Assembly (NCBI GenBank): GCA_030039195.1
Contig: JASHQK010000615.1
Span: forward strand, 1-40,537
Origin: Candidatus Sulfotelmatobacter sp.
GTDB lineage: Bacteria > Acidobacteriota > Terriglobia > Terriglobales > Acidobacteriaceae
Direction: 5' to 3'
Length of the DNA stretch: 40,537 nt
The notes below the pieces were generated by a model that did not search any database, was not told the origin of the DNA, and saw only the letters and a list, made by a program, of their open reading frames with translations. The translations under genes were made by a program, and so were the position numbers. Shown here piece after piece: positions 17,560-39,617 of this stretch. Numbering within the stretch: the stretch's first letter is position 1; each line of letters begins with the position of its first letter.

Positions 17560-18069
17560 GTGTTTAAGGACATCGAACACCTCGTCCGCCTCGCCGCTGT
17601 CATGTTGTTGGCGCTACTACTGTTCATCGTTTTTCGGGCTGCTGTTGTCCCCAAGAGCTTCGGTCAGTACGGACACTATCGCGGAGCTGCCATCGCCGAA
17701 ATTGCCTCCCGGCCTGTAGCCATTGCCGGCCGCGAAGTCTGCGAAGGCTGCCACACCGATGTGGCCGACCAGAAAAAACTCGGCAGCCACGTTGTTCTCT
17801 CCTGTGAAGCCTGCCACGGCGCCCAGGCCAAGCACGCGGACGATCCGGCCAATGTGACCCCTCCGAAACTCGACAGCGCAGTGGTCTGCGCCCGTTGCCA
17901 CGAAGCCAATAGCGCCAAGCCGAAAGCCTTCCCCCAAGTCGTAACGGCAGATCACTCCGGCGGCATCGCCTGCGACACGTGCCATCAGCCCCATAAACCC
18001 AATATCGAGGACACGCCAGCGCAATCAGCTAAGACCACTACTGGCAAGAGGACGGGGGCCAAGCCCTAA
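17560..18069 (+). CDS. Membrane-anchored tetraheme c-type cytochrome
   Basis: N-terminal TM plus four CxxCH motifs: CEGCH, CEACH, CARCH, CDTCH. Confidence 0.88.
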   Translation: MFKDIEHLVRLAAVMLLALLLFIVFRAAVVPKSFGQYGHYRGAAIAEIASRPVAIAGREVCEGCHTDVADQKKLGSHVVLSCEACHGAQAKHADDPANVTPPKLDSAVVCARCHEANSAKPKAFPQVVTADHSGGIACDTCHQPHKPNIEDTPAQSAKTTTGKRTGAKP

Positions 18070-18800
18070 TGGAGATCACGCGCCGCCACCTCCTCCTTTT
18101 GCTGCCCGCTGCCGCCGTGGCCTGGAAATACGTCGAGGCTGGCACGCCCGAAGCCGCGCCCAACTACAAGCTCACCGATCACTGGTGGTGCATGCTGATT
18201 GACATTCCCAAGTGCATCGGCTGTGGCAGCTGCGTCCGCGCCTGTGCAGAAGAAAACGATGTTCCCAACGGCTACTTCCGCACCTGGATCGAGCGCTATC
18301 ACGTCGCCGACTGGAAAAATGAACGCCCCGAAGTCTCGTCCCCCGATGGCGGCAAGGAAGGCTTCCCGGCTGGCGAAGTCGGCGACGGTAAGAACTTCTT
18401 CGTCCCCAAACTCTGCAACCACTGCGCCGACTCCCCCTGCACACAGGTCTGCCCCGTGGGCGCAACGTTCATGACGCCCGACGGCGTTGTCCTCGTCGAC
18501 AAGACCTACTGCCTCGGCTGCCGCTACTGTGTGCAGGCCTGTCCCTACGGATGCCGCTTCATCAATCCCAAGACTAATACCGCGGACAAATGCACGCTCT
18601 GTTATCACCGCATTACCAAAGGCTTGACCACGGCCTGCTGCGAAGTCTGCCCCACCGGCGCTCGTCAGCTCGCCGACCTGAAGAATCCAAAAGATCCGAT
18701 TCACGAGTTCCTGCGGACCCATGCCGTGCAGGTTCTGAAACCGCACATGGCAACCGGAGCAAAGGTTTATTACAACGGCATCGACGGATCAGTGAGGTGA
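18069..18800 (+). CDS. Tat-type 4x[4Fe-4S] ferredoxin-like electron transfer subunit (NrfC/DmsB/PsrB family)
   Basis: TRRHLLLLLPAAAVAW signal; CIGCGSCVRAC, CNHCADSPCTQVCP, CLGCRYCVQACP, CTLC...CCEVCP; TAATG overlap with upstream gene. Confidence 0.9.
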   Translation: MEITRRHLLLLLPAAAVAWKYVEAGTPEAAPNYKLTDHWWCMLIDIPKCIGCGSCVRACAEENDVPNGYFRTWIERYHVADWKNERPEVSSPDGGKEGFPAGEVGDGKNFFVPKLCNHCADSPCTQVCPVGATFMTPDGVVLVDKTYCLGCRYCVQACPYGCRFINPKTNTADKCTLCYHRITKGLTTACCEVCPTGARQLADLKNPKDPIHEFLRTHAVQVLKPHMATGAKVYYNGIDGSVR

Positions 18801-18821
18801 CTCTGTTCGTTTTGAGAGGCA

Positions 18822-18875
18822 GCGGCTGAAGCCGCGCTTTAGAGCGCGATAACCCATGCGGCTTTAGCCTTGAGG
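18822..18875. repeat. REP-like palindromic intergenic element
   Basis: GCGGC-TGAA-GCCGC (18822-18835), GCGCT-TTAG-AGCGC (18834-18847), then GCGGCTTTAGCC. Confidence 0.5.
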
Positions 18876-18892
18876 GATGCTAAAGGAGGCTC

Positions 18893-20092
18893 GTGCAAAT
18901 CCCAGTCGAAGGCTTTATGTATCCAAACGAGGTCGAACTCCAGTGGAGCGTCCTGATCGTTCTCTATCCCTTCCTTACGGGACTGGTGGCGGGCGCATTC
19001 ATCCTGGCGTCTCTCGAGCGCGTATTCCGCGTCGACGCCGTCAAACCCACCTATCGCCTTGCTCTGCTTACCGCGCTCTCGTTCCTGCTGGTCGCTCCGC
19101 TGCCGCTGCAGCTTCACCTCGGCCACCCCGAACGTTCCTACGAAATGTACTTGACCCCGCACCGCTCGTCGGCGATGGCCATGTTCGGCTTCGTCTATCT
19201 CTGGTACCTGATGGCCGTTCTTCTGCTGGAAATCTGGCTCGACTATCGCCGCGACATTGTTCAGAGATCCAAAACTTCGACCGGCCTCGTGCGTCTCATT
19301 TATCGGATCCTTACTCTTGGCTCCGACAACATCAGCGAACGCTCACTGCAGATTGATGAACGCGTCGGCTACTTCATCACCTTGATCGGCATCCCGTCCG
19401 CTTTCCTTCTCCACGGATACGTGGGCTTCATCTTCGGATCGGTAAAGGCCAACCCCTGGTGGTCGTCGCCGCTGATGCCGATCGTTTTCATTTTCTCGGC
19501 GATGGTCTCGGGCATCGCCGCCGTAATGTTGCTCTACATGCTCTCCAGTCGCCTCCGCCGAAAATCGATCGACATTCGCTGTCTCGACAAAATTGCGCAG
19601 TATCTGCTCTACACCTTCGTCATCGATTTCAGCCTCGAGATGCTCGACCTCCTTCAGCGCATCTACGAGGCCGATGAATCCTTTCGCAGCCTCGATTTCA
19701 TGGTGCACACGCGCCTCTGGACCTCCCAGGTCATCATTCAGATCTTGCTCGGAACCGTCACGCCGATCGCACTGCTCGGCCTGACCCAGAGCCTCAGACT
19801 CACCGACACCGTTCGCAAACGGGTCTACGCCGTCGCCGGATGCCTTACCGTCGTCGGCATTTTCGCTATGCGCTGGAACGTCGTCATTGGCGGCCAGTTG
19901 TTCTCCAAAAGCTTTCTCGGCTACACCACATACAAAATGGGCTTTGCCACCCGCGAAGGATTGTTGACCGCAATCATACTTATGCTTCTTCCCTTTGCAA
20001 TTCTGTGGGTCCTGGTCAAACTTCTGCCGCCCTGGCTGGACGCGGATTCCTTTCCCGCTTCCAGTTCAGTTCCGGCGCACGGAACCAACTAG
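18893..20092 (+). CDS. NrfD/PsrC-family polytopic membrane quinol-interacting subunit
   Basis: About ten TM helices; start GTG after aaaggaggctc; FLTGLVAGAFILASLERVF, LGHPERSYEM; gene order cytochrome-FeS-NrfD. Confidence 0.85.
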   Translation: MQIPVEGFMYPNEVELQWSVLIVLYPFLTGLVAGAFILASLERVFRVDAVKPTYRLALLTALSFLLVAPLPLQLHLGHPERSYEMYLTPHRSSAMAMFGFVYLWYLMAVLLLEIWLDYRRDIVQRSKTSTGLVRLIYRILTLGSDNISERSLQIDERVGYFITLIGIPSAFLLHGYVGFIFGSVKANPWWSSPLMPIVFIFSAMVSGIAAVMLLYMLSSRLRRKSIDIRCLDKIAQYLLYTFVIDFSLEMLDLLQRIYEADESFRSLDFMVHTRLWTSQVIIQILLGTVTPIALLGLTQSLRLTDTVRKRVYAVAGCLTVVGIFAMRWNVVIGGQLFSKSFLGYTTYKMGFATREGLLTAIILMLLPFAILWVLVKLLPPWLDADSFPASSSVPAHGTN

Positions 20093-29328: not shown

Positions 29329-31668
29329 GTGGCAACGCCTGTACAGTCTGTCGCAATGCAAGGCGAGCAAGTGCCGTCGTCTTCTATGAGGGCGGCTCTG
29401 ACGCTGATCGGATTCAGCGCGGTCATCGGCCAGATCACCCTGTTGCGGGAACTCGTCGTCGTGTTCAACGGCAACGAGATTTCGCTGGGAATTATGCTGG
29501 CCACATGGCTTTTCTGGACCGCCGCCGGCAGCGGCGTGAGTAGCCGTTTCGCACGAGGCAGGATAAACGTTCGCCTGGCGGTCGCCGCTCTCGAATGCCT
29601 GCTTGGCGTCAGCCTGCTGCCAACCATCTGGGCGTTGCGCGCCTCCAGAGTTTTTTTCCAGACCGTGCCGGGTGAACTGGTTGGTCCGGTGCCAATGCTG
29701 CTTACATCCCTGACATGCCTGAGCGTGTTTTGTTTTGTCGCAGGGTCGCTTTTCGTCGTCGCGACCAGGATGTACGAACAGGAGTGCGCTGTTTCCGCCC
29801 GCGTCGCTACCAGCTCGGCTTACTTGCTGGAGGCCGCCGGGTCCGCCTTCGGAGGAATCCTGGCAAGTATTGTGTTGCTGCGCTTTCTTGAGTCCTTCCA
29901 GATCGCGACCGTCGTCCTATTGCTGAACCTGTATATGGCGGCAGTTTTGTTGTTCCGGATGAGCCGCAAGCAGGTTAGGGCTGGGATTGTGGCAGCGGCC
30001 CTTTTCGGGGTCCTTCTCCTCATATATGTTTCACCCCGGTTGGACAGGTCGGCGCAACAGCGCCTGTGGCGGGGATTCCGCCTGCTGGGATCGCGCAACT
30101 CGATCTACGGCAATCTGGCGGTCATCCAAACCGGCAATATCCGCAGCATTTATGACAACGGAGTGATCCTTGCCAGCGCGCCAGACGAGAACGCGGCTGA
30201 AGAGGCGGTTCACTACGCTCTCCTGGAGCACCCCGCGCCGAGGCACCTCCTGCTGATTGGCGGCGGCGTGAATGGAAGCATTGCACAGGCGCTGAAACAT
30301 CCATCAGTTGATCAGATAGACTACGTCGAGCTGGATCCCGCGCTGATCGACATAGCACGGCAGTTCTTTCCCCTGCAGTCTGCTTCTATTTTCTCGGACC
30401 CTCGGGTGCACTTGCACTACGCGGATGGCCGGTCGTATCTGAAGACGGCTGGCGACAAATTCGACGTAATCATTCTTAATGTGCCTGACCCGCAGACCGC
30501 TCAGTTAAATCGGTTCTACACTGCCGAGTTCTTTCATTCCGCTCGCGATCATCTCGCGTCCGGCGGACTGCTGGCCTTGCAACTGCGCTCGTCGGAAGAT
30601 TACATCAGCCCCGACTTGGCGGAATTCCTGCGCTGCATTCACTTCACTCTGACCAAAGCTTTTCCTTACGTTGTCGGCATTCCCGGAGAAACAATCCACT
30701 TCTTCGCCGCTGCCCAGCCCGATGTTCTGACGGATAATCCCCAAACCCTGATTGCAAGATTGCAGCAGCGGAATCTGAAGACCCAGTATGTTCGGGAGTA
30801 TTTCATCCCATTCCGCATGATGCCCGATCGCATGGTGCAGATTCACGAGCAATTGCGGCCACTGGCCTCGACGCCGGTCAATCGGGATTTCAATCCCATC
30901 GCCTATTACTTCGATGTTGTGTTATGGAGCACGCAGTTCAAGTTGGGCTATTCCCGGTGGTTTCGGGCCGCTGCTACGATTGCGTTCTCCACCGTTGTCG
31001 ATGCGGTCCTTGGTATCTCATTCTTCCTGGCGGTTCTTTTGGCATTTGTGCGCGATCGCGAGAAACGTACCCGCTCTGCTGCGGCGTACTGTGTGGCTGC
31101 GACAGGATTCACGCTGATGGCTCTGCAGATTTTCCTCTTGCTGGCTTTCCAGTCCGTCTACGGTTACGTTTACCACCAACTCGCGATCCTCGTCGCCATG
31201 TGTATGGCAGGCATTGCCTTCGGAAGCTGGTCGGCCATCCGCCATATTCGCTCCGGCCAAAGTCGAGCTTACCGCTCGATTATGACGACCCAGATCCTGC
31301 TCGCCTTTTCGGCTCCGGCGCTGATATTTGTGGTTAGCCTGTTGTCGAAGATTTCCGGGATGGCGACAACATGGCTGGCTGCGCAGTTAGTCTTTCCTGT
31401 GTTGGCTGCTCTCTGTGGAATGCTGGGAGGTTACCAATTTCCCATCGCAACGGAGATCTTCCTTCAGGACAGCACCGGTCGATCAAGACTCGGCACACTG
31501 TATGCCATCGATCTACTAGGCGGATGCGCGGGCGCGCTTTTGTTGAGCAGCTACCTCATTCCAGTGTTTGGTTTCTGGAAAACCGCATGGCTCAGTGCGG
31601 CGGTAAACCTGGCGCCGATCCTGCTGGCCGGACGGGTGAGCCTGCCGGCACGGTTGTCTCGGGCGTAA
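29329..31668 (+). CDS. Polytopic membrane protein with internal spermidine-synthase-like methyltransferase-fold domain
   Basis: TM block, LLLIGGGVNGSIAQALKHPSVDQIDYVELDPALIDIA ... DGRSYLKTAGDKFDVIILNVPDPQTAQLNRFYTAEFF, then TM block. Confidence 0.82.
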   Translation: MATPVQSVAMQGEQVPSSSMRAALTLIGFSAVIGQITLLRELVVVFNGNEISLGIMLATWLFWTAAGSGVSSRFARGRINVRLAVAALECLLGVSLLPTIWALRASRVFFQTVPGELVGPVPMLLTSLTCLSVFCFVAGSLFVVATRMYEQECAVSARVATSSAYLLEAAGSAFGGILASIVLLRFLESFQIATVVLLLNLYMAAVLLFRMSRKQVRAGIVAAALFGVLLLIYVSPRLDRSAQQRLWRGFRLLGSRNSIYGNLAVIQTGNIRSIYDNGVILASAPDENAAEEAVHYALLEHPAPRHLLLIGGGVNGSIAQALKHPSVDQIDYVELDPALIDIARQFFPLQSASIFSDPRVHLHYADGRSYLKTAGDKFDVIILNVPDPQTAQLNRFYTAEFFHSARDHLASGGLLALQLRSSEDYISPDLAEFLRCIHFTLTKAFPYVVGIPGETIHFFAAAQPDVLTDNPQTLIARLQQRNLKTQYVREYFIPFRMMPDRMVQIHEQLRPLASTPVNRDFNPIAYYFDVVLWSTQFKLGYSRWFRAAATIAFSTVVDAVLGISFFLAVLLAFVRDREKRTRSAAAYCVAATGFTLMALQIFLLLAFQSVYGYVYHQLAILVAMCMAGIAFGSWSAIRHIRSGQSRAYRSIMTTQILLAFSAPALIFVVSLLSKISGMATTWLAAQLVFPVLAALCGMLGGYQFPIATEIFLQDSTGRSRLGTLYAIDLLGGCAGALLLSSYLIPVFGFWKTAWLSAAVNLAPILLAGRVSLPARLSRA

Positions 31669-33187
31669 GCGTTTCAGGTACGTTCTCGCCGAACACCACC
31701 GCTGTAAACATGAATATGTCGGTGTTCGCGTCCTTCCAGCAGCCGGAGCGCATACCTGCTTTGGCGCAAGTTTCCTCGAGGAATCGCTGTCGATCCCATT
31801 TCTCTTCGACTGGCACCTGCGGAAGAAAAATCCCCTCGTGCGCGCCGTTCTTCATCAGCAGACCGTGCTGGCCAACCTTGATCTGTCGAAGGTCGAGCAC
31901 TCGCCGAAGAGGCGACAGCACGGAGATTTCATAGTCCAGTCGCGACAACTCTGAAGCCGATACCGGCTGAAATCGGGGATCGCGAAAGGCGGCCAACGTA
32001 GCCGTGTCCCGCACGGTCATATACAGAGGTTTAACCGCAGAGGTATAGCCGATGCACCCCCGCAGTTCTCCCGATTCGCGCAGGGTCACGAAAGCACCAC
32101 GCTCCTGATTCAGTACTTCGCTTTCACTCGCGGGCGGTTCATACGCCTTTTTCTCCCGCACCGCGTACTCCACCGACTTGCGAGCCAGCGCCAGCAATTC
32201 GCTTTTGTCACGGGCGTTCAGCGAGAATTGCGGTTCTACTGTCTTTCCATTTTGAGTTTTCACAAAGACGTCTGCGCTGTATCCGACCACACGGGAGTGA
32301 TCTCCTATGATGTCGCCGGAATTGGCGTACTTCAGCACCACAGCCCGGTTCGCTCCCATGCGCTCGGCAGCAATCATTGCGGCTACGATGGGTGCGCCGC
32401 CACAAGCTTCCCATACCCGCGTTTCGAAATTCTGCGACATGCTGAGGTAGTCCCAAGCCTCGAGCGCATTGAGCGTTTTATGGTCGATCTTCACAGCTTC
32501 GTCGTAGGGGTGATAGTGCGATAGATCCGAACTGGCCACGATCAGCGTATCGCTGCCTTGGATCAGTTTCGCCAGAGCCAAGCCTAGCGCACGGCTGCTT
32601 TCGTAACTCTGGTCTCCCATGACCACCGGAACCAGTTCAAAGTCACCGAGCACATGTTGCAACCACGGCAATTCCACTTCGAGCGCATGTTCAGCGCCTT
32701 TCGGTGTGGGAACATGTCCCTGGCCCGAAAGCCGGATAGTCGGGCTCATGCTGGCCAGCTGCTTTGCAAACACTTTGTCGACCGGGACTTCACCGAGCGG
32801 CGTCGCATAAGCGTCTCCGTCATAGACGGAGGTGAAATCAAAGGCCTCGTAATGCGACGGCGCAATCACGACTACGCGCGAAAACTTGCGGCCCTTCAGA
32901 ACCGCATAGGTGTAAGCAGCGACCGGGCCCGAGAACTGATAACCGGCGTGCGGTGCAACCACGGCGAGAATAGGATCATTGATGGGCGGGGGAGAAGCGT
33001 GCGCCAGCATGTCATCCATCATCGCCACAAGCGTCTTTGGGTCGGCGGGATAGAAGCCACCGGCGACGCCGGCTTGTCTCACCTCCTGAGGATCGGCAGC
33101 ACGGACGTGCGGCACGGCAGCAATCGCCACGATCGCGATGAGCAGGGACGCTGGCCAATACTTTCTGAGATGCGTCTTGTTATCCAT
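31592..33187 (-). CDS. AmmeMemoRadiSam system protein B/A fusion (MEMO1-like + AMMECR1 domain), with signal peptide
   Basis: Signal SLLIAIVAIAAVPHVRA-ADP; MEMO motifs VAPHAGYQFSGP, APSHYE, SSDLSHYHPYD, EACGGAPI; AMMECR1 motif LRGCIGY. Confidence 0.9.
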   Translation of the reverse strand: MDNKTHLRKYWPASLLIAIVAIAAVPHVRAADPQEVRQAGVAGGFYPADPKTLVAMMDDMLAHASPPPINDPILAVVAPHAGYQFSGPVAAYTYAVLKGRKFSRVVVIAPSHYEAFDFTSVYDGDAYATPLGEVPVDKVFAKQLASMSPTIRLSGQGHVPTPKGAEHALEVELPWLQHVLGDFELVPVVMGDQSYESSRALGLALAKLIQGSDTLIVASSDLSHYHPYDEAVKIDHKTLNALEAWDYLSMSQNFETRVWEACGGAPIVAAMIAAERMGANRAVVLKYANSGDIIGDHSRVVGYSADVFVKTQNGKTVEPQFSLNARDKSELLALARKSVEYAVREKKAYEPPASESEVLNQERGAFVTLRESGELRGCIGYTSAVKPLYMTVRDTATLAAFRDPRFQPVSASELSRLDYEISVLSPLRRVLDLRQIKVGQHGLLMKNGAHEGIFLPQVPVEEKWDRQRFLEETCAKAGMRSGCWKDANTDIFMFTAVVFGENVPETLTPETTVPAGSPVRPAGSAPGLPPH

Positions 33188-33209
33188 ATGCGTATCTCCT
33201 CTCGCGCTT

Positions 33210-34451
33210 TCAGGCGTGCCAAACACCGGGGATTGGCTCCCGGCAGAATGGGCAACTGCCCTTGTGGATCAGCATCTGGCTCGCCGTAAACCCTACGCGC
33301 TCCACCAACATGCGGTGGCACTTCGGGCAGTAGGTATTTTGCGCAGGATGTCCTGGCACATTGCCGATGTACACGTAGTGCAGCCCCTCGGCGTCGGCAA
33401 TCGCCTTGGCACGCTCCAGAGTGGGAACGGGCGTTATGGGCAAGTTTTTCAACAGGTATTCCGGATGGAATTGCGTGAAATGGAGGGGAACATCCGGACC
33501 CAGGTCTGTCTTGATCCAGCGTGCCAAGCCGCTGAATTCGGCGTCGCTGTCGTTCAGCGTTGGCACTACGAGGTACACGATTTCGGTCCACTTGTTCATC
33601 TTGCGCAAGGCGACCAGCGAGTCTAAGACAGGCTTCAGTTCGCCAACGACAACATCCTTGTAGTAGGACTCCGTAAACGCTTTCAGATCGATCTTGACGG
33701 CGTCCATTTTCCCGTACGCCGTCTTGAGCGACTCCTCTTGCATGTAGCCGTTCGAGACGACCACGCTGCGGACGCCGGCTTCGTGGCCGGCATCGGCTGT
33801 ATCCATCAAGTACTCGCTGAAGATGACTGGCTCGCTGTAGGTGTACGCAATCGTTGGACACTGATGCTGTTTGGCCAGTTCGGCAACTAATTTCGGAGGT
33901 GCGTAGTCGGCAGGAACCTGCTCTGGGCGCACTTGCGAAATGTCCCAGTTCTGGCAGAACTTGCAGTTGACGTTGCAACCGGCTGTCGCCAATGAGAAAG
34001 CTAAAGTTCCTGGCAGGTAGTGGAACAGGGGCTTCTTTTCGATGGGATCCACATGCGCTGCGCACACCCGTGAGTGGACCAGCGTGTAGTACGTTCCTCC
34101 GCGATTCTCACGCACGCCACAATAGCCGCGTTCCCGATCGCCCACCGTGCATTCGCGCGGACAGAGTTTGCACTTGATCTTCTTGTTTTGAAGTTTCTGG
34201 TAGAACTTTGCCTCTACGGTGAATCGCGAATCATCCTGCTTTTGCAAGCCCCACGCCGGGATTGCGAACATGCACTGGGCAAATTCACAGACGCCCAAAG
34301 CTGCTCCGGACGTCAAAGCGCACTCCAGGAATGAACGGCGATCCATCTGGCACGAGAACGAATTTCGCTCGCCCCAGATAGCGGGACTCTGGCGTTCTTT
34401 ACCGTCTGCCGTGGCTCTCACGCCCTCTTGCGTCTTGAGCTTGGACGACAT
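33210..34451 (-). CDS. AmmeMemoRadiSam system radical SAM enzyme with RR-type N-terminal signal-like segment
   Basis: CNVNCKFCQNW (CxxxCxxC), CKLCPRECTVGDRERGYCGVRENRGG; DRRSFLECALTSGAALGV near N-terminus (alternative start ATG 34346). Confidence 0.9.
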   Translation of the reverse strand: MSSKLKTQEGVRATADGKERQSPAIWGERNSFSCQMDRRSFLECALTSGAALGVCEFAQCMFAIPAWGLQKQDDSRFTVEAKFYQKLQNKKIKCKLCPRECTVGDRERGYCGVRENRGGTYYTLVHSRVCAAHVDPIEKKPLFHYLPGTLAFSLATAGCNVNCKFCQNWDISQVRPEQVPADYAPPKLVAELAKQHQCPTIAYTYSEPVIFSEYLMDTADAGHEAGVRSVVVSNGYMQEESLKTAYGKMDAVKIDLKAFTESYYKDVVVGELKPVLDSLVALRKMNKWTEIVYLVVPTLNDSDAEFSGLARWIKTDLGPDVPLHFTQFHPEYLLKNLPITPVPTLERAKAIADAEGLHYVYIGNVPGHPAQNTYCPKCHRMLVERVGFTASQMLIHKGSCPFCREPIPGVWHA

Positions 34452-34464
34452 CTTGGACTCTCAA

Positions 34465-35484
34465 TCACGCCGCGGCCCCCACCTCGACAACCGCGATTCT
34501 TCTGGGATCATCTGTGCCCAGTCGATGCTGTTGATCGGCAGCGGTCGCGATGTAGTGTGGCGCTCTGCCATCTGCTTCGAGCGTCTTCAATCCTTTCTCA
34601 GCTCTCTTGCGTTCGATGATTTGCCAGCCGGTGTAGTCGAGCGCGACGGGATCTTGCGAAACCATCAGTGCATTGTTCTTCCAACAGAATTCCGGCTTGT
34701 ATCCCGGCCCGCCTTCGTACGATGCCGTGGTCGCATCACAGATGGTCAAACGCAGCTTGGTTCTGATTTCCGGCAGCATGTTCAAATCTGCGATGTATGG
34801 ATTGCAGCCGTTCGGGTGGTATTTGTTTGGATTATGAATGATTCCATACATGTTTTTCAGAGCGATGGTGACACCGGCGCCGTCATGGTCTTTCAAGACG
34901 GGGACATTGATCAGGACGTCGCAGTGCTGCGTCAGAATCTTCGACAACCGGCTGCCTACGCTTCCGTACGCTGACAGTTCTTCTTCGTAACCCATTCGAT
35001 CGGTGCCGAAGCATTGAACACGATTTGCGGCGGTCGAAACATGGAATCCAACCCGTTCCAGTTCGTCGCTGTCGCGGTCCCAGACGACGATATCGTTCGC
35101 CTTAATTCCAGCCTCCTGCAATCGTTCACAAATGGCCTCAACCAGCTGGACACTGCTCGAGAGTCCGCGCCCGCCCAGAGCGTTCACTTTGATTCCCACC
35201 GTCTCACCGGTATGGACTAGCTTCTTCCACGGCTCGGCTGGATGATCAAGATCAAAAAAACTCTGCATGGCCCGATCCAATAAGCTCAGAACACGATTGG
35301 GATCTACCTTTGCCCCGGTGCCGCGTAGCAGCCCGTCGCGGGCGATGACAACCCTTGATTTTCCAGGTGCCTGTTGCCCTGCTGCTTCGAGCAGCGGCAC
35401 CTTGCCGGCAACGCGGAGGGTCGCAACTCCCGTGGCGCATTTCTTCAGAAAGTCACGCCGACTGGTTTCGTATCGATGGCTCAT
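34465..35484 (-). CDS. DUF362 domain protein with Tat signal
   Basis: SRRDFLKKCATGVATLRVAG; INVPVLKDHDGAGVTIALKNMYGIIHNPNKYHPNGCNPYIADL. Confidence 0.85.
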   Translation of the reverse strand: MSHRYETSRRDFLKKCATGVATLRVAGKVPLLEAAGQQAPGKSRVVIARDGLLRGTGAKVDPNRVLSLLDRAMQSFFDLDHPAEPWKKLVHTGETVGIKVNALGGRGLSSSVQLVEAICERLQEAGIKANDIVVWDRDSDELERVGFHVSTAANRVQCFGTDRMGYEEELSAYGSVGSRLSKILTQHCDVLINVPVLKDHDGAGVTIALKNMYGIIHNPNKYHPNGCNPYIADLNMLPEIRTKLRLTICDATTASYEGGPGYKPEFCWKNNALMVSQDPVALDYTGWQIIERKRAEKGLKTLEADGRAPHYIATAADQQHRLGTDDPRRIAVVEVGAAA

Positions 35485-35588
35485 AATGCCGGCTCGTTGG
35501 AGATCGGTATTGAGGAGTCGCCTTATCTCGTATACCGCGAGCGCTTTGAGTTTTCAGTGACACCGCGCACAAACCTTCGGCCACCAAC

Positions 35589-36098
35589 TCATTTTGTCAG
35601 CCGCCGTTCGATACCGCGCCCCAGCAACACAATGGCCTGTGGGGTTTCCACGGATTCTTCATACGCGACGATCCGAACTAAATAAGGTCCCTTACGGAAG
35701 ACAAGGCTCTGGGTATGCAGGCGCGCCGCGTCTCCCATCTGCACCGGTTGGGCGTCGCCGGCCGGTTCCGATTCGAAAATTTTCGCGGCGCCCTTTGAAT
35801 TTCCCATCGTGTAGATATCGACGGCCGCATCGATCTGGTTGTTGAAGTCGTAGTCAGTCGTCGACACTCTTTGTACTCCGGCTTGCAAGTACCGTTCGGC
35901 GTCGCCGTCGATGTACTTCCACAGATCCACAGCTTCGAATGTGCGGATACCGTCAGCCTTTGTCCAGCCTGCAACCTCGTTGGAACCCGGAAAGAGGTCG
36001 TTTGAACTCACAGAGTGCCGCTTGCAACTGACAACTGAGAAGAGAGCCAGGCACAATGCCACCATCACCGCACTGCATAGAGGCTTCCCGCTCCTCAT
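35589..36098 (-). CDS. Putative lipoprotein, DUF6599-like
   Basis: Start ATG 36098 with RBS ggaggg; lipobox-like FSVVSC; PGSNEVAGWTKADGIRTFEAVDLWKYIDGDAERYLQAG. Confidence 0.65.
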   Translation of the reverse strand: MRSGKPLCSAVMVALCLALFSVVSCKRHSVSSNDLFPGSNEVAGWTKADGIRTFEAVDLWKYIDGDAERYLQAGVQRVSTTDYDFNNQIDAAVDIYTMGNSKGAAKIFESEPAGDAQPVQMGDAARLHTQSLVFRKGPYLVRIVAYEESVETPQAIVLLGRGIERRLTK

Positions 36099-36560: not shown

Positions 36561-37946
36561 TCAAGCCTCAGCATTGGCTAGTGGCAGCCATACCCGAAAG
36601 CGCGTATCGCCGGGTTTCGAATTGACCTGAATATTTCCCTTGTGCTTCCGCACAATCCGCTGCACGGTATCAAGTCCCAACCCAGTGCCCTCGCCCACTG
36701 CCTTGGTCGTAAAGAAAGGCTCAAAGATGTGCGCCCGTATTTCTGGAGAGATTCCCGGGCCGTTATCGCCGATTTCAACCACGACGCAGCCGTCGTCGCG
36801 ATACGTTCGAACTCGAAGCTCTCCCTTTCCGCTCATCGCATCGATGGCGTTGTCCATGAGATTGGTCCAGACCTGATTGAGCTCGCTGCCAAATGAGTTG
36901 ACGAGAAATGGAACCGGTTGGTAATCGCGCTGCACGCTCACGCCGCGTTTGAGCTTATGGTTCAAAATCGTCAAAGTCGTTTCGAGACTCTTCACCACAT
37001 CGACGTTTTGCAAGGACGACTGGTCCATGTACGTGTATTCCTTAATGGCGCGGACCAACTCGGAGATTCGCGAAGTGCTGCTCTCAATCTCTTTCAAAAG
37101 GCTGGCGATCTCCACAGATGCTGCAATCCTCACTAAGGCCGCCCGCGCCGTGCCCGCGTCGAGGTTTTCGAATAACGACTCCAGCGCAGAGGGCTGGATT
37201 CCTCTTTGCGCCAACTCGGCCGACAATTCCCACAAATCGTTCTGCCCATGGCTCCGCAACAACGAGTCAATCTGATCTTCCAGGTCGCTGATCGTGAGGG
37301 TGTCCGGCGGGGGCGAGTCATTCTGTGTAAAAGATGATTCGAGCTTCTCGATTTCTGCTTTTTGCGTAGGTGTCAGCTCCCGCTGGCCGAGCTGGAGACT
37401 GGCCTCTTTAATGCGATGCAGCGTATCGCGCAACTGTGCCGACGCACGTTTTGCGGCGGCAGCGGGATTGTTGAGTTCATGAGCAAGTCCGGCTGAAAGT
37501 TTTCCCAAGCTGGCCAGCCGGTCCCGCTGCTGTTCGAGCCGAGTCGCTTCGCGAACACGGTCGGTCATCACGCCAACCAGGCGCTTCACCAATTCCGGCA
37601 TCTTCTGCACCAGTTCCGGAAACAGCGCTGAGGGAAAACGCAGGATTCGGCCCTCGCTGGTTGTACGGCCCGTGACCGTAAACTGCTTCATCCGCGAGAA
37701 CGGCAGCGCACCGGTGACGTCTCCCACTTTGCCGGGTATGACGACAATCTCGCCATTGAAGTCGCCTCGCCACTCAAAGTCGCCTTCCAGGAGGACAAAC
37801 ATCCAATCGGGCGGATCGCCTTGCTTCGCGTAGACCTCACCCGCCTTGAGCTTGAGCTCTTTCGACTGGCTGAGAAACCAGTCGATCTGATCTGCCGGCA
37901 ATTCTGCGAATGCAGCAAAGCGCAATAGTTCTGATGAAGTTGCCAT
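36561..37946 (-). CDS. Histidine kinase with N-terminal CRP-like (cNMP-binding fold) domain
   Basis: AGEVYAKQGDPPDWMFVLLEGDFEW; H-box GKLSAGLAHELNNPAAAAKRAS; N-box NLMDNAIDAM; GTGLGLDTVQRIV. Confidence 0.9.
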   Translation of the reverse strand: MATSSELLRFAAFAELPADQIDWFLSQSKELKLKAGEVYAKQGDPPDWMFVLLEGDFEWRGDFNGEIVVIPGKVGDVTGALPFSRMKQFTVTGRTTSEGRILRFPSALFPELVQKMPELVKRLVGVMTDRVREATRLEQQRDRLASLGKLSAGLAHELNNPAAAAKRASAQLRDTLHRIKEASLQLGQRELTPTQKAEIEKLESSFTQNDSPPPDTLTISDLEDQIDSLLRSHGQNDLWELSAELAQRGIQPSALESLFENLDAGTARAALVRIAASVEIASLLKEIESSTSRISELVRAIKEYTYMDQSSLQNVDVVKSLETTLTILNHKLKRGVSVQRDYQPVPFLVNSFGSELNQVWTNLMDNAIDAMSGKGELRVRTYRDDGCVVVEIGDNGPGISPEIRAHIFEPFFTTKAVGEGTGLGLDTVQRIVRKHKGNIQVNSKPGDTRFRVWLPLANAEA

Positions 37947-39617
37947 TTAAACCTTGCTCAAATACTGATGAATAAACTGCACAGCCACGGAACCTTCGCC
38001 CACGCCGGAGGCCACGCGCTTCACTGACCCGTGCCGCACATCGCCAACCGCAAAAATACCAGGCACATTGGTTTCCAGCAGGAATGGATCGCGGTCGAGC
38101 GACCATCCCTTGGGATGTTCGCCATCCCTTATCAGGTCAGGACCGGTAAGGATAAAACCGCGGTCGTCGCGCTCGACCAGGCCCGCGAGCCATTCTGTAC
38201 GGGGCATCGCCCCAATGAAGATGAACATTGAGCTGGCCGGTACGCGCTCAACTTTGTTCGTATCCGAGCAAAGCACCGAGATTTCCTCTATCTTCTTGTC
38301 GCCGTGGACCTCGGCCACGCTGGCATGGGTCCAGATCTGGATGTTGGGGGTCTGCTGGATCTGGTCGATCAGGTATTGCGACATAGTAGCCGCGAGTCCC
38401 TCGCCTCGCACCAGGACCACCACCCTGTCGGCATATTTGGCGAAGTTCATGGCAGCCTGTCCTGCCGAATTCGCGCCACCGACGACATAAACAATTTCGC
38501 CTTTACATGAAAGCGCCTCGGTGGCGCCGCCTCCGTAATAAACTCCCGCGCCCTGCAGCTTATCGATACCCGGCGCCTCCAGTCGACGCCACTGCACCCC
38601 GGTTGCGACCATGAGCGCATGGCAAGAGATTTCGCTATCGTCGGCCAGCTTGATGATCCGATATGAGCCCTCTGTGCGCACGCTGACGGCTTCCTGGGGC
38701 GAGAGAATCTCGACACCGAAGCGCTGCGCCTGCACTACGGCGCGACGGGCAAGATCGCCTCCGCTGAGGCCGGTGGGAAACCCGAGATAATTCTCGATAC
38801 GGGAGCTCATTCCCGCCTGACCTCCGGGTGCTTCCCGCTCGACCATAACCGTGTGCAGTCCTTCCGACGCGCCGTAAACCGCAGCCGCAAGGCCAGCAGG
38901 CCCGCCGCCTATGATCGCCAAATCATAGAAGTCGGTCTGAGCTCGCGTGCGCAGGCCGACTCTTTGCGCAACCTCCGCGGGCGCACCCTCAGGCAGCTTC
39001 GTGCCATCAGGAAAGAGCACCACAGGCAGATTCGACGCGTCTGGTCCGAGGACATCGAGAAGACGTTTGGTTTCGGGATCATTGGCGCTCAGCTCGATGT
39101 CGATCCATTGATAGGGAACGTGGTTGCGGGCAAGAAAATCGCGCAGCTCGTAGCTGCGGGGGGACCAACGGGTGCCGAGCACTCTGATTCCTTCAAACGC
39201 CGGCCGGTAGGATGCACGCCAATCATCCAGCAAATCATTAAGCTGTGGATAAAGGTTATCCTCGGGAGGGTCCCAAGGCTTCATAAAAAAGTAGTTGATA
39301 TTCGCTTCGTTGATGGCACTGATGGCGGCGCTGGTGTCTGCGTAGGCAGTCAGCAGGGCCCGCTTGGCGTCAGGGAAAATTTGCATTCCCTCCTGAAGAA
39401 ACTCGACACCGTTCATGCGTGGCATGCGCTGATCAGCCAGCAGCAAAGCCACATTGTCACTGCGGGCCTTCAGTTGCTTCAAAATATCGAGCGCTTTGTC
39501 GGGCGCGTCGCTTCCAATTACTCGATAGTCGGCCCCATATTGCGAACGGAGGTCGCGTTCGATGGCCCGCAGGACATCGGAATCATCATCCACACTCAGC
39601 AAAATTGGTTTGGGCAT
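37947..39617 (-). CDS. Response regulator receiver fused to glutaredoxin-like and thioredoxin-reductase-like FAD domains (CxxC absent)
   Basis: ILLSVDDDSDVLRAIERDL, LLADQRMPRMNG; LAIIGGGPAGLAAAVYGASEGLHTVMVERE; VVGGANSAGQAAMNFA; VPGIFAVGDVRHGSVKRVASGVGEGSVAVQ. Confidence 0.9.
   Translation of the reverse strand: MPKPILLSVDDDSDVLRAIERDLRSQYGADYRVIGSDAPDKALDILKQLKARSDNVALLLADQRMPRMNGVEFLQEGMQIFPDAKRALLTAYADTSAAISAINEANINYFFMKPWDPPEDNLYPQLNDLLDDWRASYRPAFEGIRVLGTRWSPRSYELRDFLARNHVPYQWIDIELSANDPETKRLLDVLGPDASNLPVVLFPDGTKLPEGAPAEVAQRVGLRTRAQTDFYDLAIIGGGPAGLAAAVYGASEGLHTVMVEREAPGGQAGMSSRIENYLGFPTGLSGGDLARRAVVQAQRFGVEILSPQEAVSVRTEGSYRIIKLADDSEISCHALMVATGVQWRRLEAPGIDKLQGAGVYYGGGATEALSCKGEIVYVVGGANSAGQAAMNFAKYADRVVVLVRGEGLAATMSQYLIDQIQQTPNIQIWTHASVAEVHGDKKIEEISVLCSDTNKVERVPASSMFIFIGAMPRTEWLAGLVERDDRGFILTGPDLIRDGEHPKGWSLDRDPFLLETNVPGIFAVGDVRHGSVKRVASGVGEGSVAVQFIHQYLSKV

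Follow-up and report, generated by a model that had tools for sequence, protein, structure and literature searches.

Conservation of MEMO and AMMECR1 extends from bacteria to humans; to our knowledge no reaction has been established for either of them. In the system named AmmeMemoRadiSam the two are accompanied by a radical SAM enzyme, a type of enzyme generally assumed to act nowhere but inside the cell. Burroughs et al., in the principal comparative analysis of the Memo superfamily (J Biol Chem, 2019), reportedly link Memo to the modification of nucleotide bases and of isoprenoids. The titles and abstracts of the literature naming the system held nothing informative about its function, and MEMO1 is described as binding iron and copper, with no reaction demonstrated for it (PMC11081632). 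The described form of AmmeMemoRadiSam is cytoplasmic and is covered by the models TIGR04335, TIGR04336 and TIGR04337. The set described here resembles it in having the same three domains, all over the cut-offs, and the same cysteine and metal-ligand residues, but differs in that every protein carries a leader, MEMO and AMMECR1 are fused, and the genes are linked to those of DUF362 and DUF6599 proteins and of a membrane protein with a spermidine-synthase-like domain (SPD). The exported variant, together with SPD, is found in about 15 phyla. With a probability of about 0.7, we take the module to be an extracytoplasmic edition of AmmeMemoRadiSam that acts, together with SPD, at the outer face of the inner membrane.

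A second AmmeMemoRadiSam set in one genome

The window, that is, the whole stretch of 40,537 nucleotides analysed here, comes from Candidatus Sulfotelmatobacter sp. From 36098 to 31592 on its minus strand, profile matches identify genes for DUF6599, DUF362, radical SAM and MEMO-AMMECR1 proteins (Table 1). The radical SAM protein reaches 387 bits with TIGR04337 (cut-off 220), and the fusion 262 bits with TIGR04336 and 187 bits with TIGR04335, both over the cut-off, while the DUF362 and DUF6599 proteins match PF04015 (E 1.7e-23) and PF20244 (E 1.4e-17), respectively. All four consecutive genes that the initial annotation had read here were thus found, although its interval of 31592-36098 missed a fifth conserved partner lying outside it at 29329-31668. 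This is the SPD gene, which is convergent with the operon and overlaps its last gene by 77 bp. The same genome encodes TatC and, separately, cytoplasmic MEMO, AMMECR1 and radical SAM proteins; the exported set is a second copy of AmmeMemoRadiSam beside this ordinary one. A genus-wide paralog (L002, L037) was considered as a second module and rejected, as the protein is leaderless and no MEMO gene adjoins it.

Table 1. Genes of the module in the window
Feature	Coordinates	Strand	Basis
DUF6599 (PF20244) predicted lipoprotein, 169 aa	35589..36098	-	profile and export signal
DUF362 (PF04015) protein, 339 aa, Tat leader, LarA-like fold	34465..35484	-	profile and TIGR01409
AmmeMemoRadiSam radical SAM enzyme (TIGR04337), 413 aa, Tat-type leader	33210..34451	-	
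MEMO (TIGR04336) - AMMECR1 (TIGR04335) fusion, 531 aa, Sec leader	31592..33187	-	
SPD, 7TM - spermidine-synthase-like SAM-type domain - 7TM, 779 aa	29329..31668	+	

Export signals and their conservation

An export-type N-terminus had been claimed for each of the four proteins, and each was recovered in the window. The radical SAM protein begins with the Tat-type leader DRRSFLECALTSGAALG, in which the RR motif DRRSFLE is followed by a hydrophobic region; the DUF362 protein carries the leader TSRRDFLKK and scores above the cut-off of the Tat signal model TIGR01409; the fusion has a Sec leader whose AxA-type end, assessed in the window protein, is VRA-ADP; and the DUF6599 protein, starting at ATG 36098, has the lipobox VVSC and is predicted to be a lipoprotein with the cleavage-site sequence MRSGKPLCSAVMVALCLALFSVVSC-KR. 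Can such leaders be products of wrongly chosen start codons? Upstream of ATG 34451 the radical SAM frame extends by only 3 codons. Its sole other ATG, at 34340, directly precedes DRRSFLE, so that no alternative start removes the RR motif. This internal ATG is absent in close orthologs, and therefore it is the long form, in which RR comes after about 35 residues, that is conserved. For the fusion, GTG 33226 was rejected in favour of ATG 33187, which is preceded by an aggagat site. Alternative starts were accordingly dismissed, by the start-codon analysis, as the source of the leaders.

Signals were then scored in orthologs by motif and hydrophobicity rules. Among the radical SAM orthologs, from about 15 phyla, the leader is Tat-like in 91 of 108 and Sec-like in nine, and two members of the exported branch (L056 and L059) have none. 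A Sec-type leader is awkward for an Fe-S protein. Export signals are also found in 57 of the 60 MEMO partners, mostly Sec-like, and in 24 of 25 DUF6599 homologs. For DUF362 the claim of export holds in part: 46 homologs are Tat-like as in the window, but 25, about a third, have no signal. The 27 cytoplasmic radical SAM paralogs, which come mostly from genomes also carrying the exported form, all lack a leader, and their loci showed no DUF362, SPD or DUF6599 neighbour, the four Tat-positive rows of the control set all belonging to three loci in which SPD is present too. Of 105 orthologs, 60 have the strict motif [STDNAG]RRxF[LIMVFK] with a hydrophobic stretch, compared with 2 of the 570 other proteins encoded at these loci and, on average, 0.1 among shuffled N-termini; judged by these counts, the Tat motif of the radical SAM enzymes is not due to chance. 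The extracytoplasmic reading of the initial annotation is therefore supported, as far as sequences tell, by both the orthologs and the start codons.

It might be supposed that the N-termini are uncleaved anchors, and that the enzymes are tethered to the inner leaflet, facing the cytoplasm and using SAM and ferredoxin there. The problem of SAM and reductant would then vanish, and the nine orthologs with strongly hydrophobic leaders without RR, as well as the leaderless third of DUF362 proteins, would fit. However, RR followed by a weakly hydrophobic segment is typical of Tat export and not of such anchors, the MEMO leaders are Sec-like with an AxA-type end in the window protein, DUF6599 is a predicted lipoprotein, and the predicted topology of SPD (see below) places its SAM-type domain outside. 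We regard this tethering as unlikely.

Active sites of the exported enzymes

The radical SAM cluster motif of the window protein is C159xxxC163xxC166, accompanied by eight further invariant cysteines. CxxxCxxC and the further cysteines are invariant in all 113 exported enzymes, and the other core residues are near-completely conserved, level with or above the cytoplasmic enzymes. In the fusion, H80, H112 and C262 match the iron ligands H49, H81 and C244 of human MEMO1 and are invariant across the ungapped rows of the alignment, in agreement with the earlier view that the MEMO metal ligands are retained. One could still imagine that the exported proteins no longer carry out radical catalysis and serve the envelope as metal-binding or sensing proteins, as MEMO1 binds iron and copper without a demonstrated reaction (PMC11081632), but the complete cluster motif and the near-complete core argue against it, and we give it hardly any probability.

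When the exported enzymes are kept together as one clade, the likelihood of the tree exceeds that of the unconstrained quick tree by 7.8 lnL (p-AU 0.60), and the exported and cytoplasmic labels change 5 times on the tree versus 27.6 times when shuffled. The exported enzymes are, on these alignments, compatible with one clade. Among solved structures, PFL-activating enzymes come nearest by profile to the radical SAM enzyme. This likeness would suit another course of events, in which the enzyme completes its radical chemistry before Tat, still in the cytoplasm and with a co-exported partner or itself as the target, and the finished complex is exported after a maturation like that by glycyl radical activases. 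Tat carries folded, already assembled complexes, and the unsigned DUF362 proteins, which adjoin a Tat-type radical SAM enzyme in 24 loci, could be matured first and hitch-hike. Yet an activase itself needs no export, the recurrent neighbours included no recognisable glycyl radical enzyme, and the constant partner MEMO-AMMECR1 would leave mostly by Sec, unfolded, and therefore could not be modified beforehand as a folded partner. Such maturation before export seems quite improbable to us.

SPD, a membrane protein with a SAM-type domain

SPD is present in 91 of 96 genomes with the exported-type radical SAM enzyme, a count that ignores kinship and in which a few genomes were classed by SPD adjacency. 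Conversely, 64 of 105 SPD genes lie within 8 kb of an exported-type radical SAM gene, and SPD is linked in 59 of 105 exported loci, contig ends explaining part of the shortfall. Its 14 transmembrane helices are arranged as seven before and seven after the SAM-type domain (about 251-510). The AlphaFold2 model (pLDDT 93.4) has seven helices ahead of the domain, and positively charged residues are concentrated in the cis loops (K+R 19.6 versus 3.3 in trans; 49 of 49 orthologs). Because of this excess and of the seven preceding helices, the putative SAM-binding domain is predicted to face outside.

Over its N-terminal membrane part and SpeE domain, SPD is like the membrane spermidine synthases (NF002956/PRK03612 and NF037959 MFS_SpdSyn), but the acidic residue binding dcSAM is replaced, and often the catalytic Asp as well. 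In the window, the acidic residue of GGG(D/E)G is lost (V314), while the positions of E334 and D366 are kept; among orthologs, the position is acidic in 5 of 59. This loss and scores far below the equivalog cut-offs (168 bits with NF002956, cut-off 472; 106 with TIGR00417, cut-off 250), with 51 bits for NF037959, led us to reject SPD as a true spermidine synthase. A precedent is the fungal NHMT (AN4663), an N-terminal histidine methyltransferase of the ER that has a 7TM part and a SpdS-like domain with Ile at the acidic position, and that modifies secreted proteins; its 7TM sequence was called unique to filamentous fungi (PMC10349129). Compared by description, SPD shares the loss of the acidic residue and the seven helices ahead of the domain, which in SPD too is predicted to be on the trans side, but it has seven more helices after the domain, is bacterial and is linked to radical SAM genes.

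Other partners of the module

Of the 105 exported-branch loci, 66 have a DUF362 homolog, whose gene in most cases immediately precedes that of the radical SAM enzyme on its upstream side, and 24 have a DUF6599 homolog inside the locus. Pfam places DUF362 and the LarA/DUF2088 families in one clan, CL0471 (PMC11770544). The DUF362 model resembles LarA-like structures remotely (Foldseek E 6.5e-7, TM 0.42-0.46) and differs from these nickel-pincer racemases in sequence, at about 13-15 percent identity. LarC was found in 14 of 15 genomes tested, with or without the module, and its co-occurrence with DUF362 is therefore uninformative; DUF362 as a nickel-pincer enzyme was not retained.

In 11 of 105 exported loci, versus 0 of 27 cytoplasmic loci, a polyferredoxin partner, the NapGH fusion, is found with a second DUF362. 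It matches the NapG and NapH models of the NapGH quinol dehydrogenase, but the NapH-like and NapG-like parts are fused, score below the equivalog cut-offs, and are linked to DUF362 instead of nap genes. The window's genome has a NapGH-type cassette unlinked to the module; among the genomes searched, unlinked cassettes are present in G000, G011 and G022, and NapGH was not found in G007, G014 and G012.

How the module may work

The signals, their conservation, that of the active sites and the gene linkage are there in the sequences. Beyond these, we infer catalysis outside, a part of SPD in the supply or use of SAM, a role of NapGH, and the product. In the proposed extracytoplasmic module, the radical SAM enzyme would fold in the cytoplasm, Fe-S clusters included, and be exported by Tat, the fusion would leave unfolded via Sec and acquire metal outside, DUF362 would be exported by Tat or remain unsigned in some lineages, and DUF6599 would be an anchored lipoprotein. 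Together with SPD they would act at the inner membrane, on its outer side; the SpeE-like nucleoside-binding domain of SPD is predicted on this side as well and probably presents, hands over or consumes SAM there. The quinone pool is a plausible source of electrons, by way of a NapGH-type ferredoxin/quinol dehydrogenase, in part of the module's range, and the product may be an envelope lipid, a cofactor or an exported protein in modified form. SPD, with its predicted outer domain, and NapGH, in a subset of genomes, go some way to answering the earlier objection that both SAM and the reductant are found in the cytoplasm. Against the proposal, we know of no established periplasmic SAM pool, and quinol potentials lie far above those at which radical SAM clusters are normally reduced. 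A bolder version, in which SPD carries or translocates SAM to its own outer SpeE-like domain and to the exported enzyme, with NapGH-type electrons, across many uncultured phyla, is tentative and in our opinion rather doubtful.

What would follow? Relocation of a whole branch with fixed partners restricts where the substrate of MEMO and AMMECR1 can be, and the exported branch can be separated genetically from its cytoplasmic counterpart within one cell, so that the question can be put to a test. If catalysis does take place outside, radical SAM enzymes can no longer be assumed to be cytoplasmic only, and SAM must have some way across the bacterial inner membrane, for which SPD is a concrete candidate; if the reading of SPD and NapGH is also true, many uncultured phyla would have an extracytoplasmic SAM economy. 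In one locus (L111), MEMO, AMMECR1 and radical SAM are found on one polypeptide, with a single N-terminal hydrophobic signal in front.

The module and its reading frames

The window is one of the 724 contigs of draft genome G000 (6.35 Mb), whose closest named relatives are Acidobacteriaceae MAGs. All four minus-strand genes of the initial annotation are present and score above the curated cut-offs, while a conserved partner, the membrane protein gene SPD, had been overlooked (see table). By family tests the module is assigned to the AmmeMemoRadiSam systems, and what appears new relative to the known ones is its predicted location, its linkage and the SPD partner. No exported radical SAM enzyme of such kind was found described in a literature search that did not cover the main comparative study (Burroughs 2019), and priority is not claimed. 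The fold of DUF362 remotely resembles that of LarA.

Features of the window
Feature	Position	Orientation	Remarks
Exported module	36098-31592	minus strand	DUF6599 (PF20244), DUF362 (PF04015), TIGR04337 radical SAM enzyme, MEMO-AMMECR1 fusion
SPD	29329-31668	convergent to module	77-bp overlap with the end of the MEMO gene
cNMP-binding histidine kinase	36561-37946
Response-regulator/thioredoxin-reductase-like fusion	37947-39617		adjoins the kinase
Cytochrome-like CxxCH protein, ferredoxin, multi-TM protein	17560-20092		ferredoxin leader MEITRRHLLL

Because only 13 bp separate DUF362 from the radical SAM gene, and 22 bp the latter from the MEMO gene (start codon ATG 33187), these three genes look like a single operon. 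It had to be considered that an alternative start removes the leader of the radical SAM protein, in which DRRSFLECALTSGAALG is found. Among close orthologs, an internal ATG immediately 5' of DRRSFLECALTSGAALG is seen in the window sequence only; in the other enzymes the only possible starts precede the RR by about 35-50 codons, and thus the RR is retained with either start.

Export signals among orthologs

Scanning genome contigs turned up 80 loci, distributed over Acidobacteriota, Latescibacterota, Zixibacteria, Aminicenantes, KSB1, Calditrichota, Planctomycetota, Neomarinimicrobiota, Poribacteria, Verrucomicrobia, Kiritimatiellae, Lentisphaerae, Omnitrophota, Elusimicrobia and deltaproteobacteria, to which a phylum search added further loci. 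N-termini were scored by simple rules, and every localisation is a predicted one. Orthologs devoid of signals, which would have spoken against the export first proposed, are the exception: radical SAM N-termini were 91 Tat-like, 9 Sec-like, 6 without signal and 2 cut, and signals were found in 57/60 MEMO (mainly Sec-like) and 24/25 DUF6599 proteins. DUF362 is more divided (46 Tat-like, 25 none, 1 Sec-like, the remainder truncated). Control radical SAM rows gave 27 without signal and four Tat-like, and the four belong to loci that carry SPD too (L157, L159, L166). A strict Tat motif occurs in 60 of 105 radical SAM orthologs versus 2 of 570 other genes at the same loci, with 0.1 in shuffles. At one locus (L111), MEMO, AMMECR1 and radical SAM form a single chain behind one N-terminal hydrophobic signal.

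Tat is the route for proteins whose folding and Fe-S cluster insertion take place in the cytoplasm, and Sec the route for unfolded ones. The window and most orthologous loci have a Tat-type leader on the radical SAM enzyme and a Sec-type leader on MEMO-AMMECR1; judging by what is generally known about both routes, exported enzymes would need such a division in order to work. Strongly hydrophobic Sec-type leaders replace the Tat-type in nine exported-branch enzymes (L104, L108, L109, L110, L112, L113, L114, L121, L125) of Omnitrophota, Elusimicrobia and unclassified bacteria, which is odd for an Fe-S protein. At 24 loci (L186-L194 and others of Aminicenantes/Zixibacteria) a leaderless DUF362 adjoins a Tat-type radical SAM gene and is possibly a Tat hitch-hiker. 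Three radical SAM frames of this branch (L086, L098, L132; 576-799 aa) have long N-terminal extensions, which might reflect additional fusions or read-through of the frame.

All 113/113 exported radical SAM enzymes keep CxxxCxxC together with eight other Cys, and exported MEMO residues correspond to the human iron ligands H49/H81/C244; the core of the exported enzymes is, as read from these residues, intact. A tree with the exported enzymes as a single clade is no worse than the free quick tree, whose deep nodes are weak, and scores 7.8 lnL better.

A second, predicted cytoplasmic set

Five genomes of the genus carry the exported branch, and nearly all members have another TIGR04337 paralog, leaderless and about 36 percent identical. 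G000 has a leaderless radical SAM gene (C680) along with separate genes for MEMO (C502) and AMMECR1 (C500); they are 35-45 percent identical to the exported ones and unlinked. Since this set is also retained in members lacking the exported module (tested: G012, G014), the exported set is to be regarded, on gene content, as an additional, compartment-specific version.

SPD and a possible electron supply

SPD lies beside the MEMO gene in all five genus members with the exported branch. In the phylum sample it is present in 91 of 96 genomes with an exported-type radical SAM enzyme and in 101 genomes in total (Fisher p 4e-71, uncorrected for ancestry). SPD genes are located ≤8 kb from the radical SAM gene in 64/105 cases, a lower bound like all linkage counts here because many loci stop at contig borders. 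In the AlphaFold2 model (pLDDT 93.4, pTM 0.93) a SpeE-like domain follows seven long helices and precedes more TM helices, interpreted as seven. Over 49 orthologs, loops on one side contain 19.6 K+R versus 3.3 on the other; the bias is seen in 49/49 and predicts the domain on the K+R-poor, outer side. The domain matches aminopropyltransferases; position 366 is Asp in 59/59 and position 334 acidic in 53/59. At the acidic position of GxG(D/E)G the window has V, and just 5/59 have an acidic residue. NHMT, a 7TM SpdS-like methyltransferase of the fungal ER that methylates secreted LPMOs, likewise lacks this acidic residue (PMC10349129). Together with the predicted outside position of the domain, this loss suggests that SPD is probably a SAM-type, not dcSAM-type, trans-side membrane protein, which may be a supplier of SAM, a consumer of it, or both.

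How could electrons reach the exported radical SAM enzyme? A NapH-NapG fusion occurs at 11/105 exported and 0/27 cytoplasmic loci, accompanied by a second DUF362 in 11/11, so that a periplasm-facing ferredoxin donor is predicted to be at hand across part of the module's range. Quinol potentials are unfavourable for the radical SAM cluster. The cassette is located away from the module in G000 and two relatives and adjacent to it in G001; Tests of G007, G014 and G012, three further members of the genus that all lack a complete module, found no NapGH. Within the genus the cassette tracks the complete module even if unlinked. It consists of the fusion, a Tat-type second DUF362 and usually DUF6599 (L195, G000:C302; L196, L197; L034:8897-10600).

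Two other gene groups of the window are to be mentioned. The histidine kinase and the response-regulator/thioredoxin-reductase-like fusion are possibly a redox two-component pair. From translations alone, the cytochrome-like, ferredoxin and multi-TM genes look like a quinone-linked membrane oxidoreductase module.
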